A stretch of 64,000 nucleotides of DNA from IMG/VR virus record IMGVR_UViG_3300037258_000514, positions 1 to 64,000 of that record. The stretch is one strand, 5' to 3'. A model generated the notes under the pieces. That model had not been told where the DNA came from. It was given only the letters and a program-made list of their open reading frames with translations, and made no database searches. Source of the stretch: a virus. The position numbers were made by a program, and so were the translations under genes. Below, piece by piece: positions 25,640 to 62,990 of this stretch. The number at the start of each line of letters is the position of its first letter. Positions within the stretch are counted from its first letter, which is position 1.

Positions 25640-26614
25640 ATGTCAATAGCATTCCCTGTTTTTCCTACACTTATAGCGGGACAGTCATTCATTACTCCAA
25701 ACCAACCTCTTAGAGGTGTAGGATGGAGTGTGAAAAAAACTCCCACATGGAGCAATGAACGTCAGCAAACAACATCAGGACGCACGCTTGTAGTTAAGTA
25801 TTGGGTAAATCCTCTTTGGAAGTGGGAGTTCAGTTATGAAATAATTCTAGACAATCCTGATAATTCTAATAGTTTTTACTCAACGCCATTCCCGGCCACA
25901 GATTTTGAAATGCTTCAAGGATTTTATTGTGGGATGGAAGGTATGGGGAATGAATTTGCGTATCAACCACCTGATTCTATTAGAGGTGGAAGTTTTACAA
26001 TAACATCAGTTTATATTGGGACTGCAAATATAGCTGTACTTGGAATTAATTCGTCATTATCTGTCGGACAACTTAGACTTGGTGATGGTTTACATATTTC
26101 GGGTTTAAGTGTTGTAACAGGTTTAAATGGAGGAAATGGCACTGTAATAGGTCTTGATACAGTAGCTAATAAAATTACGTTGTCTATTACTATTGCTACG
26201 CATGTTTTTACTGCGGATAGCGGAACAGCAGTTGGCGGACAACCTCTAAGTGTTCCTGATGGTGATGGTAATATTGAAATAGTAAATACGATTGGCGCTT
26301 ATCCAAACACACTAGTCGCGGCCCCTGCAATTAATACTTCTGTGGAATCTGTTCAGTTGCCTGATACATCCACAATTATAATCTACAGTAACGGAACTGA
26401 CGTAACGAGTAGTTGTACTTTTGCTGCTGCAAATACGATCGCTGATTATCAGGGTGTTGTTGCTCAATTCGGGGTAACATCTTTAACAGCACCAATTACT
26501 GCATCATTCCAATACTTTTACTTATGTCGCTTTTCTGAAGATACACAAGAATTTGAAAATTTTATGGCTATGCTTTGGAAAGCAACAGTCAAAATAGATC
26601 AGGTGCGAATCTAA
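25640..26614 (+). CDS. Distal tail protein, DUF2460-like (first copy)
   Basis: The 324-residue product begins with Phe-Pro-x-Phe-Pro-Thr-Leu, Gly-Trp-Ser-Val-Lys-Lys-Thr, and Trp-Glu-Phe-Ser-Tyr-Glu. It closes with Phe-Tyr-Leu-Cys-Arg-Phe-Ser-Glu-Asp-Thr-Gln-Glu-Phe, the signature of the DUF2460/gp12-type protein of GTA-like tails. A beta-rich insert occupies about 110-240. It follows the tape measure, as distal tail proteins do. The gene at 27893 is a clear paralogue. Confidence 0.7.
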   Translation: MSIAFPVFPTLIAGQSFITPNQPLRGVGWSVKKTPTWSNERQQTTSGRTLVVKYWVNPLWKWEFSYEIILDNPDNSNSFYSTPFPATDFEMLQGFYCGMEGMGNEFAYQPPDSIRGGSFTITSVYIGTANIAVLGINSSLSVGQLRLGDGLHISGLSVVTGLNGGNGTVIGLDTVANKITLSITIATHVFTADSGTAVGGQPLSVPDGDGNIEIVNTIGAYPNTLVAAPAINTSVESVQLPDTSTIIIYSNGTDVTSSCTFAAANTIADYQGVVAQFGVTSLTAPITASFQYFYLCRFSEDTQEFENFMAMLWKATVKIDQVRI

Positions 26615-27891
26615 TGGGGTTGCAATTCTTAATGTCGGGATGTAACTTTTGCTTTAATCAGGGTATAACTACTGCTGGAGTGTTCGGCGCGACATTTCAA
26701 GCTACTTTATCAAATAGTGCCCCTGCAGGCAGAGGAAGTTCGTATGCAGTTCAAACAACTGGATCAGGAGGACAAGTATCTGCATTTTCGTTAGCATCAA
26801 ACTACTCAACCCTTATCGCAGGATTTGCTTACTACCCCACAGGACTTAGCTTTGTTATTCAACCGCAGATATTAACATTCTATACAAACAGTATAGCGAG
26901 TCAGTGTGATGTACGAGTAAATAGTAGTGGACTCTTTTACTTTACTAGAAACGGAACTACAATAAGCGGATTGAGTTCTATAGCTTTAAGCCAAAACGTA
27001 TGGCAGTATATAGAATTTAAAGCTTTCTTCTCAATAGGAACTTCAGGGACATGCGAAGTTAGAGTAAATGGTGTTCCTGTTCTAACAGCAACGGGATTAG
27101 ATAACTCCTCTACAGGAAACGGGGGACTCGTACAGTACGGAACACTAGGCGCTACTCAAGGATACTACAGAGATTTTTATTTCTTAGATGGTATAACAGG
27201 AGTAAATACAGATTATTTAGGAGATATTAGTGTTCAAGAATACTATCCGAATGGGGCAGGTGTAAATTCTCAATGGACGCCAAACGTCGGACCTTTCTTA
27301 ATTACCTCCGTAGCAGCAGGAACTGGTGTTTATACAGGAGTAATTACAGGAGGAGGATCAAATGCTTACCAAGGATATTACTTTGTAGCAAGCGGTTTCG
27401 GCCAATCTGCAAATAACGGAACTTTTTTGTGTACAGCATCATCATTAACTACATTAACACTAGCCAATGCATCAAGTCAGATTGATACAACAGGAACAAT
27501 TGATTTTCAATGTATAGTTCAGCCAGGTATTCATGGCGGTGCAGTTGATAATTCTACTTCGAATGTAGGAACCCGTCCGAATCAAGATGTAACATATATT
27601 TCAGATTCAACTTCCAGTGATATTTCTGACTTCGTTCATCAACAGTTTACTACGGCTAACGCATTAATTCCTGGAATTACGCATTTATCTTATGCCCGAA
27701 AAGATGATGTTGGCACGAGACTAATCGCGCAAGTTCTTCTATTGGGAGGAGCAACTGCTGTTTCTAACAGCATATCTTTAAGTACGAACTATCAGTACTA
27801 TCAACAGGTAATGGATGTTGATCCGAATAGTAATCCCTGGACAGTTTCAAATTTTAATTTGACAACAGGCGGAGTAAAGGAGTTAACATAA
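26614..27891 (+). CDS. Lectin-like (laminin-G/concanavalin fold) tail protein, copy 1
   Basis: I chose the ATG at 26614, which overlaps the previous stop (TAATG). The roughly 425-residue product has the pattern of LamG-like domains: 'cdvrvnssGlfyftrnGttisg', Trp-Gln-Tyr-Ile-Glu-Phe-Lys, and Gly-Thr-Cys-Glu-Val-Arg-Val-Asn-Gly. It is Ser/Thr/Gly-rich. A closely similar protein is coded at 34853. Such domains often bind surface sugars, so adsorption is a reasonable inference. Its location between two copies of the distal tail gene is unusual. Confidence 0.65.
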   Translation: MGLQFLMSGCNFCFNQGITTAGVFGATFQATLSNSAPAGRGSSYAVQTTGSGGQVSAFSLASNYSTLIAGFAYYPTGLSFVIQPQILTFYTNSIASQCDVRVNSSGLFYFTRNGTTISGLSSIALSQNVWQYIEFKAFFSIGTSGTCEVRVNGVPVLTATGLDNSSTGNGGLVQYGTLGATQGYYRDFYFLDGITGVNTDYLGDISVQEYYPNGAGVNSQWTPNVGPFLITSVAAGTGVYTGVITGGGSNAYQGYYFVASGFGQSANNGTFLCTASSLTTLTLANASSQIDTTGTIDFQCIVQPGIHGGAVDNSTSNVGTRPNQDVTYISDSTSSDISDFVHQQFTTANALIPGITHLSYARKDDVGTRLIAQVLLLGGATAVSNSISLSTNYQYYQQVMDVDPNSNPWTVSNFNLTTGGVKELT

Positions 27892-40857: not shown

Positions 40858-41328
40858 ATGAATCAGAACGCCCCGAATCCTGCCGATAAATACGTGTATC
40901 TCTTCGTCCGCCAAGATCTACCAATTCAACACCAAATTGTTCAATCCAATCACGCCACTCATATGATGGCTTCGATTCGCCCGGAAGAGTGCGTGCCCAA
41001 TATCGTACTTATTGGTGTGCCCGACTTAAACGCTCTTCTTCGTGTGGCGCAGAAGCTTAGAGCTAATCAAATTCCTCACTACGAGTGGGTCGAACCAGAT
41101 TTTGATTTAGGTTTTACTTCAATTGCTACTGCTCCGATTACTGGAGAGAAGCGTCAAGTTTTGAAGAACTATAGACTTTATTCCCCTGGAACCGTTGCGG
41201 TAAACGGCGTCGCTTGTATAGACCAGCCAATCCGCGCAGCTTGTCTCTTAACTGAGGACAGGGGAGCCAGTGCCCGAGTAGCTCAACAGCAAGAGCAGCC
41301 CGGTCTAAACGGGATGGCTGAAGGTTAA
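40858..41328 (+). CDS. Peptidyl-tRNA hydrolase 2-like protein
   Basis: Residues about 11-115 follow the PTH2/Bit1 pattern: Tyr-Val-Tyr-Leu-Phe-Val-Arg-Gln-Asp-Leu, then Gln-Ser-Asn-His-Ala-Thr-His in place of QCSHA, and Ile-Val-Leu-Ile-Gly-Val-Pro-Asp. A helix, Ile-Pro-His-Tyr and a final 'siataPi...' strand come next. Family members release peptides from stalled tRNAs, and some phage copies are of unknown activity; the invariant Cys-Ser is Ser-Asn here. The last 40 residues have no PTH2 counterpart, and the frame ends inside the first tRNA gene. Being co-transcribed with tRNAs supports a translation-related role. Confidence 0.55.
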   Translation: MNQNAPNPADKYVYLFVRQDLPIQHQIVQSNHATHMMASIRPEECVPNIVLIGVPDLNALLRVAQKLRANQIPHYEWVEPDFDLGFTSIATAPITGEKRQVLKNYRLYSPGTVAVNGVACIDQPIRAACLLTEDRGASARVAQQQEQPGLNGMAEG

Positions 41329-41347
41329 AGTCCTTCCTTGGGCACCA
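41272..41347 (+). tRNA. tRNA with CUA anticodon (amber suppressor)
   Basis: A 76-base cloverleaf with encoded CCA: acceptor GCCCGAG/CTTGGGC, TA, D-arm GCTC/GAGC with loop AACAGCAA, anticodon stem GCCCG/CGGGA (one G-A mismatch), loop GTCTAAA, variable TGGCT, T-arm GAAGG/CCTTC with loop TTAAAGT, then A and CCA. The loop centre after U33 is CUA, which reads the codon UAG. The D-loop lacks GG and the T-loop lacks the usual TTC, a paired loss. The amino acid cannot be told. The 5' two thirds overlap the end of the PTH2-like frame, whose TAA lies in the T-loop. Confidence 0.8.
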
Positions 41348-41405: not shown

Positions 41406-41486
41406 GCCGCTGTAGCTCAGATGGGCTGTATCCAGAGCAGCTTCCTTTTAGGGAGCAGGTCGGTGGTTCGATTCCATCCAGCGGCT
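41406..41486 (+). tRNA. tRNA with UUU anticodon (Lys-type), enlarged D-loop
   Basis: Acceptor GCCGCTG/CAGCGGC (7 bp), TA, D-stem GCTC/GAGC with a 16-base loop (normal is 7-11), anticodon stem GCTTC/GGAGC, loop CTTTTAG with UUU, and T-arm GGTGG/CCATC with loop TTCGATT. No CCA is encoded and the discriminator base is T, unlike ordinary tRNA-Lys. Function is likely but these oddities leave room for a decayed gene. Confidence 0.7.
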
Positions 41487-41502
41487 CTCTTTAAAATCGT
41501 GC

Positions 41503-42977: not shown

Positions 42978-43175
42978 CTATCGAGCGGCGAGAATTGCTT
43001 TCTTAACTTCGCTTACAGGAACTGCTCCTGTTGCATTCTTCTGTTCAAGCATTAACTTAAAAAAGACTGAGAAGTTTTGATTTAATTCCGCGATCTGGGC
43101 TGTCGTCTCAACACGAAGTGCAGCTTCCATACTGTTTAGTGATTTAAACTGATTTCTAATTTCGTTAGATGTCAT
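42978..43175 (-). CDS. Small helical protein, unknown
   Basis: A 65-residue product, helical and Ala/Glu-rich, with Gln-Asn-Phe-Ser-Val-Phe-Phe-Lys in the middle. It starts on the stop of the preceding nuclease-QueD gene (ATGA overlap) and ends with TAG immediately followed by TAA, three bases before the helicase ATG. It may be a helicase partner or loader fragment, judged by position only. Confidence 0.55.
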   Translation of the reverse strand: MTSNEIRNQFKSLNSMEAALRVETTAQIAELNQNFSVFFKLMLEQKNATGAVPVSEVKKAILAAR

Positions 43176-44326
43176 TCTAGCTCCTTTGGTAAAACTAATA
43201 GCCCACTGTTTGTATAAACTAAGGAATACATTGTAGTTGATGTTAGTTCAAATGTTGCAGAGCACTTTCTTGTTTCCTCAACACAACATTTTACTAAGTG
43301 CACTCCTGTTCCTGTAAGTTGTTTTGGACCGACATGCTCAACAAGAAATTTAGCGATATTTTCAGCTGTAGGATTAAATGGAGTAATTACAACAGTTTTA
43401 TCAAGAGCCTTAAATGTTTTACTCCAAGGATCTTTCTTCCATATTAAAAATCTATGATCCCAGTTTGTTTCTAGCCATTGGCATAGAAGTGTGTTAATTA
43501 CTCCAAAATCAATTACTCTTCCTATTGAATCTAGAGAAGAAGCAACGCATGTAAAGTGTATTCTATAATTATGTCCATGAGCGTGGGAGCAAGCCCCTTC
43601 GTGTCCATATACTCTATGACCTGAAGAGAAATCGTGATAACGAGTAGCTGTAATTAAACTGTTATGAATTTTCTTAGCTATCCATAAGGGAATATCATGC
43701 TCCCAAAGTATTTCGACTTCCCATCCCTTTGCTTTGATAAAGCTAAGTCTTTGTTTTTCGTATGAAATACTTTTCTCTAAAACTTGTTTATCTACAATTT
43801 TATCAAATCCACATATCGAGCAGTTATGCCAAAAACATCCATTAACTTCGAGAATTTTCTTCTCATTTAGTGAGGCAAAATCTACTTGGTATCTTCCGAT
43901 ATGATATTGCCTTTTCCATCCCTGAAGATATTTCGCAACTAAATCTTCTACTTTTGATGTTTTTCTTCTGCCAACTTCAGGAGAATGAAAAATCCAATGT
44001 GCACCATTTTTTAGTGCTGTTGAAATCTTCTTAGCTATTTCAGGATCTTTAGCTATATTCTTCTCGCCATGCTGATATCCTACTTTAGGCATAGAAGTTC
44101 CGTAAATACCTAAGTATGTTTTTCCTTTTGTTCCGTGTCCTTGTTTATAAACAGGTCCGGATTTTACTTCGTGCGACAATCTTATAATTTTTGTTCCGCA
44201 TCCACAGGAACATTCTACTTCTATGGGTGTTAAGCATAAATTGCATATAAACGATTTAATATCGTTAGCTAGAAAACGGTCCTCGCAGTATTTGCAACTA
44301 CGCTCTTTCGGTGTAGTTAAACGCAT
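43172..44326 (-). CDS. queD: Vsr-like nuclease fused to QueD (6-carboxytetrahydropterin synthase)
   Basis: The 384-residue protein has two parts. Residues 1-225 carry CxxC pairs (11/14, 28/31), a middle DNA-binding region, and a Vsr/EDxHD-type nuclease: Val-Asp-Phe (148-150), Asn-Gly-Cys-Phe-Trp-His-Asn-Cys (162-169) and Trp-Glu-His-Asp (208-211). Residues 227-384 are QueD: Ser-Ser-Gly-His237-Arg, Cys246 with His250-Gly-His252, Trp-Asp-His-Arg near 294 and Val-Glu-Glu-Thr near 355. QueD makes the precursor for 7-deazaguanine. The link between domains is direct. A homing nuclease that entered the queD start in frame is the simplest explanation. Confidence 0.8.
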   Translation of the reverse strand: MRLTTPKERSCKYCEDRFLANDIKSFICNLCLTPIEVECSCGCGTKIIRLSHEVKSGPVYKQGHGTKGKTYLGIYGTSMPKVGYQHGEKNIAKDPEIAKKISTALKNGAHWIFHSPEVGRRKTSKVEDLVAKYLQGWKRQYHIGRYQVDFASLNEKKILEVNGCFWHNCSICGFDKIVDKQVLEKSISYEKQRLSFIKAKGWEVEILWEHDIPLWIAKKIHNSLITATRYHDFSSGHRVYGHEGACSHAHGHNYRIHFTCVASSLDSIGRVIDFGVINTLLCQWLETNWDHRFLIWKKDPWSKTFKALDKTVVITPFNPTAENIAKFLVEHVGPKQLTGTGVHLVKCCVEETRKCSATFELTSTTMYSLVYTNSGLLVLPKELE

Positions 44327-44589: not shown

Positions 44590-44745
44590 TCATTTAGATT
44601 TTGCCTGGTCGTCTGCTATTTTTGTCGCTGCCGCAATTCGGGCAAGTTCAGCAAACATAGAACTACCTTTAATTGTTTGTGAAATTCTTCTTCTTCGAGC
44701 TTTAGATTTACCTCTATTGGCATTATACTTCTTATTAATCGCCAT
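44590..44745 (-). CDS. Very small basic protein (51 aa)
   Basis: ATG at 44745 lies within the last codons of the SbcC-like gene, and the TGA at 44590 is adjacent to the next start, so the frame fills the gap exactly. The first half is Arg/Lys-rich, the second an Ala-rich helix. A small DNA-binding protein is possible. Coupled translation supports a true gene. Confidence 0.5.
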   Translation of the reverse strand: MAINKKYNANRGKSKARRRRISQTIKGSSMFAELARIAAATKIADDQAKSK

Positions 44746-46828
44746 CATGCTCACTTACCTTATAAATTTTACTTCCTGTTGTTTCTTTTACTACAGTCCA
44801 TATTTCCTTAAAACCACTGAACGCTAATGCTCTGTGATCTACGATCCAGATTTGTTTATCATTTGCTTCTGCTCGATACTGAAGTGATTGTAATAAATCT
44901 TCAATACCTTCTGATGATAACCATGATGATGGTTCATCCCACACTTCAAATGTAAATCTAACTCCTGCTGCTCTATGTATTAAACTAGCTAATCCCATAG
45001 CAATAGCAAGGCGAAGGCGCTGTGTTTCTCCCCCTGACCATACATCCCAAGTACCTTGTGCCGTAGGAGAACTAATATGTATTTGTACACCTAACTTGAT
45101 CGTAGCTGATTTTGTTTCGGTTTCAGTGGCGAGTGCCACACTCCAGCCTGTCAACCCTAGCGCACTTATTGCAGACTGAATTTCGAGTTGTAACACAGCA
45201 AGTACCTGCTGAACGAAATAAAGCCGAATGCGTTTAAAACCATGCTTCCAATATTCGGCGGCGATAACTTGTGATTCTATTAATTTATACTCAGTTTCTT
45301 GAGCTACCAGCAGTGTGAGTAAACGTGATCTTTCTTCTTTAACTCTTTCAAGTTTTTTTATGAAAGGATTTTCTTCGATACTAACTGCTGCCATCTGTAT
45401 GGCGTAAGGATCTTTCTTATTCTTAACATCTACAATTTGCTTTGTAAATGGATTGTTTTCGTTTTCGAGCACTGCAAGTTGTTTTATGTAAGGATCGTTA
45501 TCGTGTGCGCGAACGAGCGCCGAAGCGTCTTTCTCAATCTGTCGAATCTGATCTTTTAGGCTTTTTACCTCCTTCTCAAGTATTTGCTTCTTACCATTAT
45601 GTTGAGAATTTGTTACGATGCAACCCTGAATCTGTAAGTTAAAGTCTATAATTTCTTTAGATTTAACTTCTACAACAGCCTGCGCTTTATCACGAGTGTC
45701 TTCGAGAGTTTTCTTTATCTTGCCAACACACTCAAGTTCGTGCTTCTTCTTATCATGTTCGATCTTCTGAAAGCACGTAGGGCACGTTTCTTGTGTCCAG
45801 AGGGAGGCTGCCGTATCACAACTCGCTATATCGTATGTTGTCTTATATAAGATTGCTGTCTGTTCTTTATTTATCTTTTCAAATTCTTTTACAAGGAGTT
45901 GCATTTGTTGAATGTGTCCCTGTAAAGGATTACTTACAAAGTTCTCATACTCAAACTCTAACGGTGCAAGACGTGTTTCAAGATCTTCTATCTGCTGAAG
46001 TTTATCTTCAGCTTCTGTCATTTTGGATTGTTTCCACTCAGCGATACTTTCTGTAAGATGAATGATCTGCTCTTGTTGCTTTCCCAACCAGTTTATAGCT
46101 TGACTTTCAAGTAGGGTTACTTGACGTACTTTTTCATCAGCCCAATCACGTGATTGTTTATCTAGTGACGCAAGCCGCAAGTCTCTTTCAAGATTCCAAG
46201 TTTGTATATCAGCTGATAAGGTTTCTTCAGTAGCTAATGAGTTTAAACTGCCGTTAGTAAAAGCCCGTGCTGTTTTCTTTTGTTCCAAAACTTTTTCAAG
46301 ACTGGATTGCTTGCTACTTGCAGCTTCAGTTGCTTTCTGCCAGACGCTTAGTGAGAGTACTTCGTCAAGTAGAGCGCCACGTTCCGACGTATCTTTATCC
46401 GGAAATAATTCGACACCTTGTCCGAAGATAACAGAATTAAGAAAACGAAGTTTAGATAAGCAGAAAAGTTGATCTACTTCATTTTGTGTTACGATCACGT
46501 CGTTTATTTCGACCTTCATTGGAGGACCGTAACGTTTTACTTTGTATAGGGTTTCATCTATAAACACATGAAATTCTACTTCTGTAGTTTCCTGTCCCCA
46601 ACTTATTACAGAAGATGTTCGTGCACCTTTTATGCTAGTGCCTGTTACACACCAACAAACAGCATCCCAAAATGAACTTTTACCAGCTCCATTAGCTCCG
46701 AGTCGTAGATCTACCTTATTATTGCCTGATAGAAGTTTTAATCCATTTGTATCAGGAAACACAACTGTTTCACTAGAGAACGAACGAAAGTTCTTAATCG
46801 TTACGCGTTGTGGTTTAATAGTCTTCAT
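44735..46828 (-). CDS. sbcC: SbcC/Rad50-like recombination ATPase
   Basis: The 697-residue protein has Walker A Gly-Ala-Asn-Gly-Ala-Gly-Lys-Ser-Ser (44-52), a long coiled coil with a Cys-Pro-Thr-Cys zinc hook near residue 345, the signature Trp-Ser-Gly-Gly-Glu-Thr-Gln-Arg-Leu near 605, and Walker B Phe-Glu-Val-Trp-Asp-Glu-Pro. This is the SbcC/Rad50/T4 gp46 architecture at the short length typical for phages. With the SbcD-like product at 48000 it should form an end-processing nuclease. Three small genes separate them. A gap of 96 bases with a repeated core (46890-46901) precedes it, so it may have its own promoter. Confidence 0.9.
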   Translation of the reverse strand: MKTIKPQRVTIKNFRSFSSETVVFPDTNGLKLLSGNNKVDLRLGANGAGKSSFWDAVCWCVTGTSIKGARTSSVISWGQETTEVEFHVFIDETLYKVKRYGPPMKVEINDVIVTQNEVDQLFCLSKLRFLNSVIFGQGVELFPDKDTSERGALLDEVLSLSVWQKATEAASSKQSSLEKVLEQKKTARAFTNGSLNSLATEETLSADIQTWNLERDLRLASLDKQSRDWADEKVRQVTLLESQAINWLGKQQEQIIHLTESIAEWKQSKMTEAEDKLQQIEDLETRLAPLEFEYENFVSNPLQGHIQQMQLLVKEFEKINKEQTAILYKTTYDIASCDTAASLWTQETCPTCFQKIEHDKKKHELECVGKIKKTLEDTRDKAQAVVEVKSKEIIDFNLQIQGCIVTNSQHNGKKQILEKEVKSLKDQIRQIEKDASALVRAHDNDPYIKQLAVLENENNPFTKQIVDVKNKKDPYAIQMAAVSIEENPFIKKLERVKEERSRLLTLLVAQETEYKLIESQVIAAEYWKHGFKRIRLYFVQQVLAVLQLEIQSAISALGLTGWSVALATETETKSATIKLGVQIHISSPTAQGTWDVWSGGETQRLRLAIAMGLASLIHRAAGVRFTFEVWDEPSSWLSSEGIEDLLQSLQYRAEANDKQIWIVDHRALAFSGFKEIWTVVKETTGSKIYKVSEHDGD

Positions 46829-46924: not shown

Positions 46925-47215
46925 TTAGTCTTCGAGGCGGACAGCGCGCTCGATATTTGTTTCGATTCTGGCTACAGGCACAGGGGGCGGTGGAGGAGGG
47001 GCAGCTTGAGGAATAGGACCATTGTAAATAAAGATTCTATCGCCGCTGCCATTATCCTGCCAGTTCAAAAATCCGTGTGTTGTTTCTATTCTGCCCATTG
47101 TATTATTCCAAACAACGGGCACACCTTTTTCTTGTAGAATGGGAATAAGAGCTTGATCTCCTGGAAGCGCCCTAAGGCGAGAATAACTAATCGTGACTTT
47201 AATTTCATTCCCCAT
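46925..47215 (-). CDS. Small protein with shared RxVRxED C-terminal tail (1)
   Basis: The 96-residue product has an N-terminal beta/alpha part, a Pro-rich linker (seven consecutive prolines near 71-77) and the ending Glu-Arg-Ala-Val-Arg-Leu-Glu-Asp. The two genes just upstream in the operon end almost the same way. It sits between SbcD and SbcC genes. The linker followed by a conserved tip looks like a docking tail, as in SSB-type proteins. Function of the globular part unknown. Confidence 0.6.
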   Translation of the reverse strand: MGNEIKVTISYSRLRALPGDQALIPILQEKGVPVVWNNTMGRIETTHGFLNWQDNGSGDRIFIYNGPIPQAAPPPPPPVPVARIETNIERAVRLED

Positions 47216-47216
47216 C

Positions 47217-47810
47217 TTAGTCTTCTAATCTAATCTCTCTATCTTCTTCTACTGTTACGTGAATCGCATTTTTTGCTTTTGCTGCATGTGCAAGGTGTTG
47301 CCTAGCTATAAGAAGTTCTGTTTCAAGTTCGCGCTTTTCCTTAAGTAATGCTGTATAAGAATTTGAAGTTCCTACATTCGAAGTAGAATTATCAACTGCA
47401 CCGCTATAATGCGAGGGGTAGGATGTATTTCCAGGAACAAGTCCTCCAGACGCTCCAATTTCTACGATTTCACTATCTGGAGGAATATATGCGTAATTAG
47501 AAAAGTTAGGACTAGCACTTGTACAGTTAACATTTGTGGTAAAAGATACTGCTGTTTCTTTGGCATTTTTAATTGCTGATGACAATTGCTTAATCTTTTC
47601 TGCTGTTAAGTTAACAGTACCTGTAAGATGTTTGTCAAACGATTCTAAGTCAGCGGCAGTAGCTTTTGATATGTAGGGCGAATTTGAATATGAAGGTCCG
47701 GGAGTAGATTGAGTATTCATACCTGTAAGTTCGCGCGGAACATGCTCTCCGCACTCTATACAAAGGCAAAGACTGCTTCCATCGTCGTAAAATTTATGAG
47801 CGCACTTCAT
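47217..47810 (-). CDS. Zinc-finger/coiled-coil protein with shared C-terminal tail (2)
   Basis: The 197-residue product begins with a probable zinc site (Cys3, His5, Cys15/Cys17/Cys20 region), has a Ser/Thr/Asn/Gly-rich middle, a coiled-coil Leu/Glu stretch near 155-180, and ends Asp-Arg-Glu-Ile-Arg-Leu-Glu-Asp. It starts on the stop of the previous gene. A role in the SbcCD-type complex is suggested only by position. Confidence 0.6.
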   Translation of the reverse strand: MKCAHKFYDDGSSLCLCIECGEHVPRELTGMNTQSTPGPSYSNSPYISKATAADLESFDKHLTGTVNLTAEKIKQLSSAIKNAKETAVSFTTNVNCTSASPNFSNYAYIPPDSEIVEIGASGGLVPGNTSYPSHYSGAVDNSTSNVGTSNSYTALLKEKRELETELLIARQHLAHAAKAKNAIHVTVEEDREIRLED

Positions 47811-47998
47811 TAGTCTTCAAATCTTACTTCACGTTCTGCCTGTATTTCAGTTGTACAATTAACTGTAGCACGTGCCTCATTTATTGACTCTACACAACCA
47901 ATAAGCATAAGATGCGTTTTTAGCATCGCTATGCGAAGTTCGTTCTCGATCTTGTTCTCTTCTAACTTATTGTGGAGGAAAATTTCTCTAACGTGCAT
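47810..47998 (-). CDS. Small helical protein with shared C-terminal tail (3)
   Basis: I chose ATG 47998, one base after the SbcD-like stop; the longer frame lies inside that gene. The 62-residue product is helical, with Asn-Lys-Leu-Glu-Glu-Asn-Lys, and ends Glu-Arg-Glu-Val-Arg-Phe-Glu-Asp. The DNA coding this tail differs in most third positions from the two sister genes, so the similarity is kept at protein level. Confidence 0.55.
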   Translation of the reverse strand: MHVREIFLHNKLEENKIENELRIAMLKTHLMLIGCVESINEARATVNCTTEIQAEREVRFED

Positions 47999-47999
47999 A

Positions 48000-48995
48000 T
48001 TATATACCTTCCAACAGTGCAACACCCATATCAATTACATCGCTGCTAAGTTTTTCATCTGCGCCGAATGTACGGACAACTTCCGCTGGTTTCATCAGTT
48101 CGAGTTGTTCTACTTTCTTGTTAGTATTAGCCTTTACTCCATCACCGATGAGTATACTTTCAGTAGAAGCTATATGAATCCCACGATCACTTCCCCACTT
48201 AGTTATCACTTTTTGTTCTTCAGGCCACTGCGTAAGTTGCTTACCTGTTAGATGATATCTTATTCTAACTTGGTCGCCTTTCTTATAAGGCATAGTCATG
48301 AGTTCTTGTGAAGATGCAATATCTAAGATTGCTCTTTTTGTTGTATCAAGCCATATATCTATAGGCATGGCAAAGCAATCATCTTTAATAAGTATTACTC
48401 TATTAGGCCACGATTCACTAAATTTTACCGGATGCGGCGTACCGATGTAAATTACGTTTCCAACAGTTTGTGGACGATGAATGTCTCCTGAGTAAATAAT
48501 AAAGTTATTTACTGATAATGGCAGAGTACAACCGGACAGCACTCTATCATTCTCTACAAGTGACCCGGAAACACACTGATGCATGAATAACGTCTTTACT
48601 CCTTTGAAATTTAGCTTTTCCCAATCTTTCTCAGGGTTAGAAGTAAACGGTAGGAAATACACGCCATCATGTAACTCCGGTTCTTGAATGTATTTAATGC
48701 CTAGTTTGTTAAGAAATTTCCAGTAATATAATCCTGTTGTTGGTGCATCGTGGTTTCCTGATATGATCTTTATATCTGCTTTTGTAAAAGATTGAAGATG
48801 ACTAAATACGTCTATCACTCCGTTAATAAGAGTTCGTGAGTGGTAATCCTTTCTGTCTACAAGATCACCTAAGCAATCAATCTCACTAACTTGATGCTTA
48901 ATAGCTAACTCTTCTAACGTCTTAAAAATATTCCATCTGTAAGCTTCCAGTGGATTGTCTGTTAGATGAGGATCTGTAAAGAGTAATCTGTTCAT
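48000..48995 (-). CDS. sbcD: SbcD/Mre11-like nuclease
   Basis: The 331-residue protein has the calcineurin-type metal sites: Asp8-x-His10, Gly43-Asp44-Leu-Val-Asp-Arg, Gly80-Asn-His-Asp83, Met-His-Gln near 138, and Gly-Asp-Ile-His near 172. This is the nuclease partner of SbcC/Rad50, here at the size of T4 gp47. Its start overlaps the preceding gene (ATGA). The pair likely processes DNA ends during recombination-dependent replication. Confidence 0.9.
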   Translation of the reverse strand: MNRLLFTDPHLTDNPLEAYRWNIFKTLEELAIKHQVSEIDCLGDLVDRKDYHSRTLINGVIDVFSHLQSFTKADIKIISGNHDAPTTGLYYWKFLNKLGIKYIQEPELHDGVYFLPFTSNPEKDWEKLNFKGVKTLFMHQCVSGSLVENDRVLSGCTLPLSVNNFIIYSGDIHRPQTVGNVIYIGTPHPVKFSESWPNRVILIKDDCFAMPIDIWLDTTKRAILDIASSQELMTMPYKKGDQVRIRYHLTGKQLTQWPEEQKVITKWGSDRGIHIASTESILIGDGVKANTNKKVEQLELMKPAEVVRTFGADEKLSSDVIDMGVALLEGI

Positions 48996-53052: not shown

Positions 53053-53496
53053 TTACTTCATTTCCTTTTGAAGTCTCACATGAGGCTGAAAGGAAATTCC
53101 TCCTCTTGGATAAAACCTGCCTATTACATTAATCCAGTGTGGCCGTAAGAAGTTAAACAAATCCGCTGCAATGCGATTTGTTACGTCTTCATGAAAAGCT
53201 CCTGAATTACGGAAAGAGAATAGATATAGTTTTAAACTCTTACTCTCTACGCATAGCGTATCTGGTGAGTATGTGATCTCAATTGTCGCAAAATCGGGTT
53301 GTCCTGTTTTTGGACAAAGACAAGTAAATTCAGGAGCTTTTATTTCAATTGTGTACTCGTGCTTCTGCTGAGGGTTTGAAAAAGATTCAAGAAGTGTTGG
53401 ATTGTAGTAAACTTCGTACTTCGTATCCCCACTTCCTAAAGACTTTAAATTTGGTGGAGGAGGAACAGGAGGATAGTCTTCTTTTGTTATGGTCAT
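53053..53496 (-). CDS. queF: QueF, 7-cyano-7-deazaguanine reductase
   Basis: The 147-residue, type I (single-domain) protein has Cys61-Pro-Lys-Thr-Gly-Gln-Pro-Asp68-Phe-Ala, the catalytic Cys and Asp at the standard spacing of seven. The family motif Glu-Ser-Lys-Ser-Leu-Lys-Leu-Tyr lies at 84-91, and Phe-His-Glu-Asp follows near 101. QueF reduces preQ0 to preQ1 with NADPH. Both catalytic residues are kept, so activity is expected. With QueE and QueD it marks a deazaguanine route; preQ1-type DNA bases are known in some phages. Confidence 0.85.
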
Positions 53497-54300: not shown

Positions 54301-55089
54301 TTATCTTACATTCATAATCTTGTGCATCTGAACCGAAATTCTCCAGTTTGGAAATTTCTTCTGCCAGTCTAAACATAATTTGAGATTCGTCATATTAACT
54401 TTATTTTCAAAGTTAATTGGTTGCAGCCATACTAGCTGATGTTTTAAAATCTCTTCAGGTAGTTGATAAGGATCAAATTTTTCATCTACAAGTAATTTTA
54501 TTTCATTTGCAATCTTTAACATTTCAGGCAAAGCCTTAAATTTTGGTGAACATGTAATCCATATATATGCGTGAGAATCGAAACTAGTAAAGGTTTTATT
54601 TAATGGAATTGTTCCTGAAGTCTCAAGTCGGATTTCTTTTCCTGCATTATGAAGTATATCAACAAGTGATGTTAATGGATGCATCATAGGTTCGCCTCCT
54701 GAAATGCAAACGTACTTAACTTCTTGCGGAAGTAATGCAATTATTTCGTAAGCAAATAAGCGTTCTTTTACTCTATAGTCTGTATCACACTCCATTGTTC
54801 GCCCGTCAAGTATTGTACACTTTTCTGTGTAAATAGGTAGAAGCGCGCTCTTTTCTTGAAAATATTTCGCTACAGCACAATTCGGCTTATGTCCAATATC
54901 CGGATCACAGTCGCTTGTACATTTATCAGGTTGAACAGGATTTTCATAACGCTCTTTTGAATAAGGCTTACCAACAGTACAACCGGCTAACCTAATGAAT
55001 GTCTGTAATTGACCACTATACGTTCCTTCACCTTGAGGTGATGTAAAAATTTCTGCTATTGGATATTTATATTCTTTAGATTTAAACAT
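54301..55089 (-). CDS. queE: QueE, 7-carboxy-7-deazaguanine synthase
   Basis: The 262-residue protein starts with Ile-Phe-Thr-Ser-Pro-Gln-Gly-Glu-Gly and Phe-Ile-Arg-Leu-Ala-Gly-Cys37, typical for QueE. Between Cys37 and Cys-Asp-Thr-Asp (Cys101) lies an insert of about 60 residues with Cys57, Cys61, Cys71 and Cys91, longer than in the E. coli or B. subtilis enzymes. Ile-Ser-Gly-Gly-Glu-Pro (129-134) and Glu-Thr-Ser-Gly-Thr near 155 are the SAM-binding motifs. It forms CDG from the QueD product, using a [4Fe-4S] cluster. The extra Cys residues could bind an added metal. Confidence 0.85.
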   Translation of the reverse strand: MFKSKEYKYPIAEIFTSPQGEGTYSGQLQTFIRLAGCTVGKPYSKERYENPVQPDKCTSDCDPDIGHKPNCAVAKYFQEKSALLPIYTEKCTILDGRTMECDTDYRVKERLFAYEIIALLPQEVKYVCISGGEPMMHPLTSLVDILHNAGKEIRLETSGTIPLNKTFTSFDSHAYIWITCSPKFKALPEMLKIANEIKLLVDEKFDPYQLPEEILKHQLVWLQPINFENKVNMTNLKLCLDWQKKFPNWRISVQMHKIMNVR

Positions 55090-58709: not shown

Positions 58710-61220
58710 CTAGAAATAGCTCCCAGTAAATTTAGTTAGAGTTTCCAAATCGCACCAGTTATATCCTACTCGCGCTTCTGTCATAAGTGGTACCGTTACA
58801 AAAGGAAATCTTGGTTTAACTATTTCAACTCCTATCGTAGTAATATACGATTCCGTTTTATCTGAATCAGGTATCGCGAAGATTAGATCGTCATGAACAT
58901 TAACCCGAGGTAATAAATTCATATCTGTCTCAATTGCCATCTCAAATAGAGCGTTTTGGGCTTCTAACACAAGCTCTGCAGCAGTACCTTGAACAGGTGT
59001 ATTAATTACTTCGTTTCCAGGTAGTACTTCGTTCCTCTCTCTGCCTGTTAGTGAAGCTACCGTTCCCGTAGCTTTATACCTTCTAAACTGTCCGTCAACC
59101 CAAGCTTTTGTTACTTTATATTCTGTCCAGAATTCATGCAAGATCTCTTCGCAAATACGAAGCGGGATTCCCGTCCTTGTAGCAATAGATTTAGCAATTG
59201 ATCCATAAAAGCTGGCAAATACAAAATCAGTTTTAATGATCGTGCGCCCGCCTTTTAGTATGTGCTTCTCTGTTGTTTCTCCTGTCTTTTGTTTTAGACG
59301 ATCCATATAAGCCGGATAGGCTTTAATAATTCTATACAGCCATTTCCAGTGGATATCGTCATCATCTACAAAAGCTTTCTTTAAGACAGGATCTTTACTA
59401 AACATTGCGATAACTCTGCCTTCAAGTTGTCCATAGTCAAAAGCAGCAAACATATAACCAGGAGGAGGGATTATCTGACGTCTAACCTCTCTGTGCTTTC
59501 GTTTCGGCCAATTCTGCATGTTGGGATCGGCGCCAGAGAGGCGATAAGTGTTTGTGTGAACTACAGTATATTGTCCGTGGATAAGTCCATCTACACCGAT
59601 AATACGTCCCTTTAAAATCGGATCAACGTAAGTGGATTTTTGTTTTTCAACTTCTCTGTATTCAAGAGTTAAATCAATTAATCTACAACTTTTCTTCTCC
59701 GCTAATTTTTCAAGTTCGTCTGCTTCTGTAACATAGTTTATTTTTCCCGCTGCAGTGACGTTCGTTGGAACTTGATAGTGATAATACTTATCCAATACGT
59801 AAGCTAAAGTTTGACCTGAGGAAATACTAAATATTTTGCTTTCTTTTTTCTCAAAATCTCTAACTTCAGGTAATAATGAAGCTTCTTTTTCACATGCTTG
59901 AGATTTCTTAAATAAGTCTTTCTGTAGCGATTCACTCTCCTTAATGTCGTAGTTTAATCCCTGTACTTCCATTGCAACAGTTGATTGCACTGTTTGAACA
60001 CTGCGTCGGTAATTAGGCAATTGAACAGGAGGAAGCATTTCAAGCATTTGGTAATATAACAATGCTTCAGCCCAAGCATCCAGCGCATTATACTCTAAAA
60101 CTTGTTCAGGAGAATATTCAGATAAGCGCTCTTTATCAAGCGGTCCTAATCCCTGTCCTGCAAGTGCGTTGTTTGTTAACTGCTTTACATCAATACCGAA
60201 ATAAATACGTGATAGAACATCTAAACTACCAAGTCCTTTTCTCTTGTGAAGTAAACGTGCAAGAATTTCTGTATCATGTAATTTCTGTTTGTAGTTCTTT
60301 GTCAAACCTACGATCCAAGGAAGTTCCATACTAGCATGTTGTGCTATCCATTCTTTATCGGATAACATCATTTCAGTTAGTACTTCCATTCCCCACGGAT
60401 CTAAATCACCCGGCCATCTAACTTTGAATGAAAACGTGAGTATTCCATCAGAACATCCACAAGTAAGTAAACGCGCGTCACGTTGGTAATGTCGAAACTT
60501 AAACGTTTCAAAATCTATTGCATAAGGACTTCTTAATTTATGAAAAAGATTAAGAACTTCTTGCTTTGTTTTTGGATAGAGTATTTCTTTTGGGGGAATT
60601 TTAATCTTTGGCGGAGCTTGAAATTTGGTCTTAACGTTCTCAAAGAAGTTTATAAGGTCATTTTGGAAAAGAGGCAGTACTGTATTAACTGTACTTCCAT
60701 CTGCATAATCTTCTCTCTCAGCACGTGCGACGTAAGATGGATGAAAAGTAGATGTAAACCAGCAAACGTGATCTCCAACTATAACAGGAAAAGGAATTCC
60801 TCTTATTTTAGAGATTGTAGGAGCATCCGGCCAAAAATAATTGAGTGCCTCATTTCCAATACCAAGAATGGCATGGGGACGGAGACTTAGGATATCCTGT
60901 TTAAGAAAGTTGGCACAACAGCTTACCTCACGTGGTGTTGGAGTTCTATTCTTTGGTGGACGACATCTTACTGTGTTCTGCCAATAAAGCTTTTTCTCCC
61001 AGTTAGGAGGGAAGTTTTCACGAAGAAACTGTCCTGTCTTTCCAATAAACGGAAACCCTTTATCGTCTTCGGTTTGTCCAGGAGCTTCTCCAATTACCAA
61101 TACTTTGTAAGGACTTTGCTCCTTCGCTATTGCCATAGGCATGCGAGGGGTCTTTAATATTGGCCACTCCTGTTTCAAGGAGCAGGAATTGCAGCTGTCG
61201 AATTGTATTAGTCCGGGCAA
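58710..61220 (-). CDS. polA: DNA polymerase A with N-terminal uracil-DNA glycosylase domain
   Basis: The 836-residue protein has three parts. Residues 1-195 are a family 4-type uracil-DNA glycosylase: Gly-Glu-Ala-Pro-Gly (44-48), His-Pro-Ser-Tyr (160-163) and four Cys (10, 13, 86, 102) with the spacing of its Fe-S cluster. Residues 230-390 are a 3'-5' exonuclease (Asp236-Phe-Glu238, His-Asp-Thr-Glu, Tyr-Asn-Ala-Leu-Asp). The rest is family A polymerase: motif A Ala-Phe-Asp-Tyr-Gly-Gln-Leu-Glu-Gly-Arg, motif B Lys-Thr-Asp-Phe-Val-Phe-Ala-Ser-Phe-Tyr-Gly and motif C Val-His-Asp-Asp. It copies the phage genome and may sense or remove uracil. Confidence 0.9.
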   Translation of the reverse strand: MPGLIQFDSCNSCSLKQEWPILKTPRMPMAIAKEQSPYKVLVIGEAPGQTEDDKGFPFIGKTGQFLRENFPPNWEKKLYWQNTVRCRPPKNRTPTPREVSCCANFLKQDILSLRPHAILGIGNEALNYFWPDAPTISKIRGIPFPVIVGDHVCWFTSTFHPSYVARAEREDYADGSTVNTVLPLFQNDLINFFENVKTKFQAPPKIKIPPKEILYPKTKQEVLNLFHKLRSPYAIDFETFKFRHYQRDARLLTCGCSDGILTFSFKVRWPGDLDPWGMEVLTEMMLSDKEWIAQHASMELPWIVGLTKNYKQKLHDTEILARLLHKRKGLGSLDVLSRIYFGIDVKQLTNNALAGQGLGPLDKERLSEYSPEQVLEYNALDAWAEALLYYQMLEMLPPVQLPNYRRSVQTVQSTVAMEVQGLNYDIKESESLQKDLFKKSQACEKEASLLPEVRDFEKKESKIFSISSGQTLAYVLDKYYHYQVPTNVTAAGKINYVTEADELEKLAEKKSCRLIDLTLEYREVEKQKSTYVDPILKGRIIGVDGLIHGQYTVVHTNTYRLSGADPNMQNWPKRKHREVRRQIIPPPGYMFAAFDYGQLEGRVIAMFSKDPVLKKAFVDDDDIHWKWLYRIIKAYPAYMDRLKQKTGETTEKHILKGGRTIIKTDFVFASFYGSIAKSIATRTGIPLRICEEILHEFWTEYKVTKAWVDGQFRRYKATGTVASLTGRERNEVLPGNEVINTPVQGTAAELVLEAQNALFEMAIETDMNLLPRVNVHDDLIFAIPDSDKTESYITTIGVEIVKPRFPFVTVPLMTEARVGYNWCDLETLTKFTGSYF

Positions 61221-61221
61221 T

Positions 61222-61446
61222 TTACTTTGGTTCTAAGAGATAGATACCTACAATTGCATCCTGCATAAAATATGCAATGGTTTCAGTTTTATCTCCGTTA
61301 GTTTTATCTCTGTTAGTCTTATAAAGCGAGACTGTCGGCGCATACCAACCAGTTCCATCAGCTTCTATGTCAACATACTTAGTTGTTACAGATGCACGTA
61401 CTGCTGCGACATCGTTACCCCGAAATATTATCCTGTAAGTTTTCAT
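61222..61446 (-). CDS. Small beta-rich protein, unknown
   Basis: The 74-residue product has Tyr-Arg-Ile-Ile-Phe-Arg-Gly-Asn-Asp-Val-Ala-Ala-Val-Arg and alternating strands, and ends Ile-Tyr-Leu-Leu-Glu-Pro-Lys. It overlaps the clamp gene by 4 bases. Such small proteins are common beside phage clamps. No known role. Confidence 0.5.
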   Translation of the reverse strand: MKTYRIIFRGNDVAAVRASVTTKYVDIEADGTGWYAPTVSLYKTNRDKTNGDKTETIAYFMQDAIVGIYLLEPK

Positions 61447-62537
61447 TTTGCCTCTCCATCTACAACGTAAATAAACTCAGGTTCATCACCGCGAAGTACT
61501 AGCGTACTCTTTCCGTCCTTGTTAAGATAATCAAATACAATCGTCTTAACGTGCATTAAAGCAATAAGTAGTAGATCAGCTGATAGCGCAACTTGCTCAT
61601 ACTTAATATCGACAGGCAATCCTTCAGCAATAAAAAATTCTTCCGTTGAACTTGCGATGCCTGAATGCGATAAGATTAGTTTTCCATCTTCTACTTTAAC
61701 TGTGATCGTGAAGGATGTATTACGATCCGATAGGAAGCGCGCTCTTGTAATAAACTTTCTCACAGCATCGCCGTTTATCTTTGTTGTTTGTGTTTGTAAC
61801 TTGTAACCATCTATGAGTTCTTTTAAATCATGTTCTAAAGGAACTGAAATAGGTAAGTGGGCTTTTAGCCAATCGCCTTGAATGAAAATTCCATCTTTAG
61901 TAATGTCAATCGCACAGTTAGGACAAACGGATACAAATGTTGAAATAATTCCCGGAACTGGCGGACGCACAGTTACTTCGTTTCTAAGAAATGTTCCATC
62001 TTGTAATATAGGAAATGTTCCTCTTGGAATCTTCGAACAGGCAAGTGAGATTGAATTTGAGGATAACAAAAATAAATCATCGCCTACAGGTTTAAAAGCA
62101 ATCCCGTACAACCCAACAGAGACAGCATGAGCTTGACACGCTGATGCTGCAAGATCGAGTGCATCGCTAAGGCTTTTGCTAGGGATCCAAGGATATGATT
62201 GATGATCAAGTGCAGGGATTTGATGATCACTAAATACAATATTCCATCGCCCTGTAGCTGCTCCGCATTGCCAGTTAATTCTATTCTCTTTTTCAATAAA
62301 AGTAATTTCACTGTCACTAGGAAGTGAACGGGCTACTGCCAGTACAGCAACAGTATCCAATAACGTTGGTTTTGTTATACCTGTGTCATCACAAAGAATG
62401 GCTGCTGTACCAAACTCACTAGTACAACGAATTTGTTCTTTATCAATCTCAATACTTCGAAATAGAGAAGTGATACTACTTGAGAATGAGATTTTTGATA
62501 GGATATTTGTTATAGCAAGAAGTGCAGAAACTTTCAT
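61443..62537 (-). CDS. dnaN: Sliding clamp (DnaN-like)
   Basis: The 364-residue length matches bacterial beta clamps. Three alpha/beta repeats can be traced. They contain Ile-Arg-Cys-Thr-Ser-Glu-Phe near 37, 'lsdaldlaasAcqah..s..lyGiafkp..ddlfllssns.slA' in the middle (the usual 'S.yG...v.i......l.l.atds..l'), and 'kfitRarfl.drntsf' in the third. The typical C-terminal peptide-binding end is altered. It is accompanied by a clamp loader. Divergent, but length, pattern and context agree. Confidence 0.75.
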   Translation of the reverse strand: MKVSALLAITNILSKISFSSSITSLFRSIEIDKEQIRCTSEFGTAAILCDDTGITKPTLLDTVAVLAVARSLPSDSEITFIEKENRINWQCGAATGRWNIVFSDHQIPALDHQSYPWIPSKSLSDALDLAASACQAHAVSVGLYGIAFKPVGDDLFLLSSNSISLACSKIPRGTFPILQDGTFLRNEVTVRPPVPGIISTFVSVCPNCAIDITKDGIFIQGDWLKAHLPISVPLEHDLKELIDGYKLQTQTTKINGDAVRKFITRARFLSDRNTSFTITVKVEDGKLILSHSGIASSTEEFFIAEGLPVDIKYEQVALSADLLLIALMHVKTIVFDYLNKDGKSTLVLRGDEPEFIYVVDGEAK

Positions 62538-62555: not shown

Positions 62556-62990
62556 TCAATTTTTTAGATTCGGTTCCTCGCAGAGTAGTTTAGTTCTTTC
62601 CAGCATGATAATTTTACCGAGATGATTTTCGCCCGCTCCGTTAACTGTCCCCCAGTAAGTATCTCCCCACCAATTGCCTTCTTCAAGCTGTTCATTGTCT
62701 GTATCAAGTAGCAGTTGCCGTAGCGGATTTACAGAAAATTTCTGTGCAACAAGTTCTTGCATAATCTTGTTGCGCATTTCATTCCAACCATCACGCAATT
62801 GGACAATTCTACCAAGGTGTTTAGCTTCTGATGCTTTACAGTGAAAAAACTTGGATCGCTCTTCCTTATTTCTACATTTGGCGGCTTGAAAGGCATTTTC
62901 AACGGATGGATATCTATCGCCTTCGTAGTAGATAAAACAACTCCAGAAGTTTGAAAGAAATCTGTATTGTCCAACAAAGTTGTTAATCAT
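62556..62990 (-). CDS. NADAR domain protein
   Basis: The 144-residue product has Tyr-Arg-Phe-Leu-Ser-Asn-Phe, Tyr-Pro-Ser-Val-Glu-Asn-Ala-Phe-Gln-Ala-Ala-Lys, Arg-Asp-Gly-Trp near 67, and Trp-Trp-Gly-Asp-Thr-Tyr-Trp-Gly. This is the signature of NADAR (YbiA-like) proteins. Family members act on ADP-ribose-linked compounds, and some remove ADP-ribose from guanine in DNA, which reverses DarT-type toxins. A phage copy could protect its DNA from such a defence; this is inference. It overlaps the preceding gene by 4 bases. Confidence 0.85.
   Translation of the reverse strand: MINNFVGQYRFLSNFWSCFIYYEGDRYPSVENAFQAAKCRNKEERSKFFHCKASEAKHLGRIVQLRDGWNEMRNKIMQELVAQKFSVNPLRQLLLDTDNEQLEEGNWWGDTYWGTVNGAGENHLGKIIMLERTKLLCEEPNLKN

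Follow-up and report, generated by a model that had tools for sequence, protein, structure and literature searches.

The sbcD-sbcC operon of this phage raises the question of why adjacent proteins with seemingly nothing else in common should end in almost the same eight residues. The window analysed here comprises the first 64,000 nucleotides of a virus record 175,952 bp long, and the rest of the record (pieces L002-L007) was scanned as well. The first gene of the operon, on the minus strand, encodes an SbcD-like nuclease subunit (48000-48995; phrog_100, E 1.1e-21; Pfam Metallophos), and an SbcC-like ATPase subunit without the tail is encoded on the same strand at 44735-46828 (phrog_77, E 6.5e-58; Pfam SMC_N and AAA_23). 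Between them, genes A, B and C form one operon-like minus-strand run. Gene A (47810-47998), whose start codon lies 1 nt past the sbcD stop, encodes a 62-aa small helical protein that ends in EIQAEREVRFED, the tail EREVRFED being encoded at 47813-47836; its stop codon and the start codon of gene B share a base in TAATG. The 197-aa product of gene B (47217-47810) consists of a zinc-binding-like region of N-terminal Cys pairs, a long linker and a C-terminal coiled coil, and ends in VEEDREIRLED, with the tail DREIRLED at 47220-47243. Gene C (46925-47215) encodes a 96-aa protein with a small domain and a poly-Pro linker, ending in IETNIERAVRLED (tail ERAVRLED, 46928-46951), and is followed by about 96 nt free of genes, its tail being kept without an overlapping downstream start codon. 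None of the three proteins matched PHROGs or Pfam above noise. Gene B and a 438-aa plus-strand ORF at 26575-27891 have GAVDNSTSNVGT in common (12 identical residues, E 0.008).

The three tails noticed in the sequence-only reading are joined by five more in the whole record. The pattern R-x-[VI]-R-[LF]-[ED]-D ends 8 of the 1,540 ORFs of the record, against 0.0004 expected from residue composition, and occurs 0 times inside proteins (111,488 residues). Scored with a profile of the tails, those family members that were included have values of 22.7-25.7, and no other window in the genome exceeds 11.4; one tailed ORF, encoding a SWIM-like protein, had been removed by the overlap filter and is hence missing from the ranked lists, its tail having been scored separately.

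The five further tailed ORFs lie side by side on the minus strand at 120,347-122,492 of the record, about 73 kb from the sbcD-sbcC trio. The largest encodes a 315-aa DUF3150-like protein (record 121545-122492; tail MRAVRFED in the end DAPMRAVRFED), and its gene keeps the full tail with a gap of about 270 nt downstream and no overlapping gene. The others encode a SWIM-like zinc finger protein with a weak Pfam match (120991-121272, MRVVRLED), a protein with a coiled coil and an N-terminal hydrophobic segment that we read as a membrane anchor (120710-120991, EREVRFDD), a near-bare tail peptide of about 30 residues (120625-120732, VREVRLED), and a protein with two zinc-binding-like Cys pairs and a coiled coil (120347-120625, EREIRLDD). 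In the AlphaFold model of the 315-aa protein, residues 307-315 have pLDDT < 50 and follow a helix; a fold search with this model, which is of modest confidence and whose underlying alignment left out the homologue from phage Tunturi_3, gave no match. SbcD, gene B and the 315-aa protein, used as single queries against viral contigs, retrieved no relatives, and a DNA search among annotated phages found none either. For the SWIM-like protein, the best relative comes from LR745208.1, a 485-kb uncultured phage, as the N-terminal part of an ORF (L063:2922-4002) that appears DNA ligase-like by eye and in which no common tail was seen.

Such likeness of gene ends might arise by duplication, in DNA or at the level of protein. 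A paralogous family was rejected because the likeness does not extend past the tail: the bodies without their tails are mutually dissimilar (BLASTP, best E 0.39), in agreement with the claim that the upstream parts are unrelated. A DNA-level origin, whether through signals for translational coupling, through overlap with start codons or through 3' ends of genes copied recently, could draw on the fact that several tails run into the start codon of the following gene (TAATG, TAGTG), and that both -DD variants are those in which the following gene takes its ATG from GATGAC. However, where two of the eight tails have the same residue, the codon agrees in 66 of 146 comparisons, at the chance level of 63.1 expected from genome codon usage, and gene C and the 315-aa gene keep the full tail without any overlapping downstream gene. 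For the latter reason, gene overlap accounts only for the change from E to D at the penultimate position. A DNA-level origin, which we regard as extremely improbable, is refuted as the main cause and still explains the -DD variants. Unrelated bodies, random use of synonymous codons and the lack of an adjacent gene at two of the tails together show that the tail is conserved at the protein level, as had been proposed.

A short exposed C-terminal peptide that is kept on unrelated proteins with random codons is best accounted for by docking to one partner. The octapeptide [E/D/M/V]-R-x-[V/I]-R-[L/F]-[E/D]-D-COOH is thus very probably a C-terminal docking motif, binding being deduced from the sequences, and the common docking partner supposed in the sequence-only reading is supported as the most economical interpretation. 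The tail would probably be extended when bound, its V/I and L/F residues facing the same side. Among known systems, the C-terminal tip of bacterial SSB is a short acidic docking peptide with one carrier, SSB, and many binding partners. The phage tail resembles it as a docking device but differs in that many carriers presumably meet one partner, and the SSB of this phage ends in ARFQTGPPK. A precedent comes from T4: the C-termini of gp43, gp55 and gp33 resemble one another, are hydrophobic and acidic, can replace each other and bind the sliding clamp (PMC2988020). In both phages, unrelated proteins end in a near-identical short hydrophobic/acidic peptide on a flexible linker. Unlike in T4, however, the sequence is R-x-V-R-L-E-D, the carriers are eight mostly small proteins rather than three, and the hub, which in T4 is the clamp, is a candidate only. 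No published account of a shared phage tail with this sequence, or of DUF3150, was found. Our best reading is that the sequence is new as a docking peptide.

The T4 precedent and the position of three tailed genes within the sbcD-sbcC operon would both be consistent with docking to a recombination or replication hub, such as SbcCD, a gp32-like SSB, the sliding clamp or RecA. The phage does encode RecA, a gp32-like SSB, a clamp loader, PolA and a probable sliding clamp (61443-62537; phrog_947, E 1.1e-5). However, the tail is absent from RecA, the clamp loader, the gp32-like SSB and the replicative polymerase, the last being a PolA-UDG fusion (58710-61220) that ends in TKFTGSYF, unlike the tailed polymerase gp43 of T4. 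Moreover, five of the eight tails lie beside an AAA+ module, and Tunturi_3, which has a related tail, yielded no hits for the families of SbcC, SbcD or the clamp. Because the Tunturi_3 genome is complete at 97,608 bp (PMC11924767), SbcCD, which the sequence-only reading had named as an example beside SSB and the clamp, is unlikely to be the common partner. The clamp family search was weak: it overlooked even the clamp of the present phage, and the absence of a clamp match elsewhere therefore says little. Taken together, we consider a replication or recombination hub unlikely.

Several other observations on the genome may be recorded here. The polymerase ORF fuses a uracil-DNA-glycosylase-family domain, a 3'-5' exonuclease and a family A DNA polymerase, and beside the probable clamp lies a NADAR-domain protein (window 62556-62990), a possible counter-defence gene. 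PHROG matches to a QueD-like protein (fused to a DUF559-like part) and GTP cyclohydrolase, together with resemblances by eye to QueE, FolE and QueC, were seen at 43172-44326, 53053-53496 and 54301-55089 of the window and at L002:4793-6736; a 7-deazaguanine pathway is probably encoded, perhaps for use in DNA modification. ARAGORN reports a tRNA with the anticodon CTA at window 41272-41347 (labelled tRNA-Pyl), adjoining a tRNA-Trp at 41406-41487; it is a possible amber suppressor tRNA.

Recurrence of the motif near sbcC or sbcD in other phages, which the common-partner idea had led one to look for, was not seen. Specific tail patterns gave 0 matches against 2.9 million viral contigs, and further pattern scans of viral contigs gave 11 single chance-like matches in unrelated proteins or spurious frames, implying that the exact motif is particular to this phage lineage. 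The tail recurs instead on homologues of the 315-aa protein. Tunturi_3 gp96 is a distant homologue (28.7% identity over 95%, E 9e-33), and further distant homologues are present on other viral contigs; profile scans of genome contigs with two alignments added no relatives. The family resemblance to DUF3150 (PF11348) is likewise distant, as the homologue on L011 scores 19.8 bits against Pfam, under the cut-off of 24.9, and the 315-aa protein itself has no match to this entry. The homologues end in DAPDRKFHLEGEEF in Tunturi_3 (RKFHLEGEEF), KKSRAISFDED on L043 and L044, GGRSYNLDE on L042 (RSYNLDE), RRRKFSLAKRA on L011 and PRRRFAANTDGRV on L012, and the better kept of these tails have the core R-x-hydrophobic-x-[LF]-[ED]. 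Within-family variation of the tail is visible for the DUF3150-like protein only. When this genome was scored with a profile of four DUF3150-like tails, of which the phage itself contributed one, the remaining tailed proteins in the filtered ORF set (i.e. without the SWIM-like ORF) came directly after the 315-aa protein. Apart from the tails, a 58-aa ORF at record 92496-92672 shares 72% identity with gp125 of Tunturi_3, whose annotation is that of a release factor with an RF-1 domain; this identity is unusually high for this phage pair.

The retention of the tail goes together with the genomic neighborhood of the DUF3150-like gene. A p97-like AAA+ gene lies near every DUF3150-like gene whose product has a tail or a degenerate tail, and the homologues beside a p97-like AAA+ mostly keep related tails. 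A second group of homologues (L045-L055) has different C-terminal ends. No AAA+ match was found in the records of tail-less homologues, many of which are fragments, and in one of them (L046) the tail-less form lies near a VWA/metallopeptidase-like gene (phrog_1314; the VWA reading is by eye). The DUF3150-like clades differ in company: in L046 the tail-less form lies near the VWA/metallopeptidase-like gene, whereas tailed forms occur with a p97-like AAA+ and here also with DUF2997. The link between tail and AAA+ is one of one clade against another rather than of repeated independent events, and it may reflect shared descent alone.

In this phage, the AAA+ ATPase of the p97/Cdc48/Rix7 class is encoded at record 127442-129001 on the same strand as the second cluster (Pfam AAA, E 5e-11). 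Its best PDB profile matches are p97/Cdc48 (E 4e-24), and its best matches in a fold search are Rix7 and p97 (E 2e-11). By sequence, a single AAA module is matched (about 313-370), and the first half is predicted to be alpha/beta without a sequence match to AAA. The last 30 residues (490-519) have pLDDT < 50 and are disordered in the model, and it is inside this stretch that the top-scoring tail-profile window of the protein, GRIVNLDT, is found; it may represent a ninth, subterminal copy of the tail. The second cluster lies downstream of the AAA+ gene, with a DUF2997 gene (E 1e-16) in between. Also between the AAA+ and 315-aa genes, a 228-aa protein (record 123415-124101; L005:915-1601) has MRAVDFNP 8 residues before its end (score 8.3), possibly a decayed or extended tail.

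The association of DUF3150 with AAA+, the position of the second cluster and the tail-like stretch of the AAA+ itself make the AAA+/DUF3150 complex the first candidate for the hub. Proximity to the AAA+ gene holds for the second cluster only, because the two clusters lie in different operons. We regard this complex as the likeliest candidate, though only tentatively. The analogy is with p97/Cdc48, which many unrelated cofactors reach via the short linear motifs VIM, VBM and SHP, the VBM being aliphatic-RXXRXXR and the SHP aromatic-XGXGXXL (PMC5559722). The phage AAA+ is nearest to p97/Cdc48/Rix7. The comparison is nevertheless one of analogy and not of membership: the tail differs in sequence from the p97 motifs, these are not known as C-terminal octapeptides, and binding to the AAA+ is putative here.

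An AAA+ of the unfoldase class is also consistent with a different role, in which the phage AAA+, or an AAA+ protease of the host, would recognise the tail as a tag and engage, unfold or degrade its carriers. Many small unrelated proteins here carry a short peptide exposed at the C-terminus, and degrons take this form. Tags of the ssrA type have a hydrophobic end, which the tail does not resemble, and a protease domain was sought in the AAA+ without success. In addition, distant phages retain the tail of the DUF3150-like protein next to the ATPase, which suits a working partner better than a substrate. A tag therefore seems rather improbable to us.

Sharing of a tail within other phages was assessed by comparing the DUF3150 tail of each phage with the C-termini of its other ORFs, internal windows serving as the null. 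In G007, the end GGRGYFLDES of a protein annotated as terminase large subunit, unrelated to the DUF3150-like protein, matches the DUF3150 tail GGRSYNLDE with a score of 36, where the internal maximum among 10,485 windows is 22. The best in-phage matches in Tunturi_3 and G001 are gp131 (VRKIRLDNE, E 0.14) and a 592-aa ORF (RRRIRLQRK, E 0.16), respectively. No second tailed protein was found in the C-terminus search of G002, G008 or G009; the DUF3150-like proteins of G008 and G009 are tailed, and the tail of G002 is degenerate. In-phage sharing extends to at least one other phage, the G007 case being significant and the Tunturi_3 and G001 cases suggestive, and the tail sequences vary from phage to phage. 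Two other likenesses were set aside: the tail ELTRRA common to Tunturi_3 gp109 and gp110 was discounted since these are paralogues over much of their length, and a 76-aa ORF of G001, whose end RRLIRLQR resembles that of the 592-aa ORF, is not significant as a DUF3150 tail match.

The terminase of G007, whose tail is of the type seen on the DUF3150-like protein of that phage, brings up the possibility that the tail directs proteins to the virion, to packaging or to a host structure (e.g. terminase, prohead, membrane or host RNA polymerase), and one tailed protein of the present phage does have an N-terminal hydrophobic segment. Here, however, the candidate terminase (155266-157038, recognised by eye only) ends in AEVAKSRL, all eight tailed genes are in early/metabolic minus-strand regions, and no other ORF of the record has the tail. 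Such targeting is accordingly quite improbable.

Our preferred explanation, a docking motif with the AAA+ or the AAA+/DUF3150 complex as its likeliest partner, has as a whole a probability of roughly 40% in our estimate. In this mechanism, eight structurally unrelated proteins would dock via their tails into the same pocket of one phage-encoded partner, namely the AAA+ ATPase or its complex with the DUF3150-like protein. The small tailed proteins would act on the AAA+ machine as adaptors that can replace one another, or would be its clients, and some would serve the SbcCD operon. A more speculative version, which we think possible but doubtful, is that fast-evolving small adaptors with a common docking octapeptide serve a p97-like AAA+ and its DUF3150-like partner while tail and pocket co-evolve. 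If tail and pocket co-evolve, each phage lineage would have its own version of the tail, and the carriers would differ by phage, a terminase in one and SbcCD-operon proteins in another.

If docking to one partner is correct, sequence alone would suffice, by way of common docking tails, to expose the hub of a protein network. One octapeptide would tie eight orphan proteins, members of the SbcCD operon included, to one common partner in phages in which hardly any of these genes has an assigned function, and the function of the conserved phage AAA+/DUF3150 module would become directly testable with synthetic peptides.
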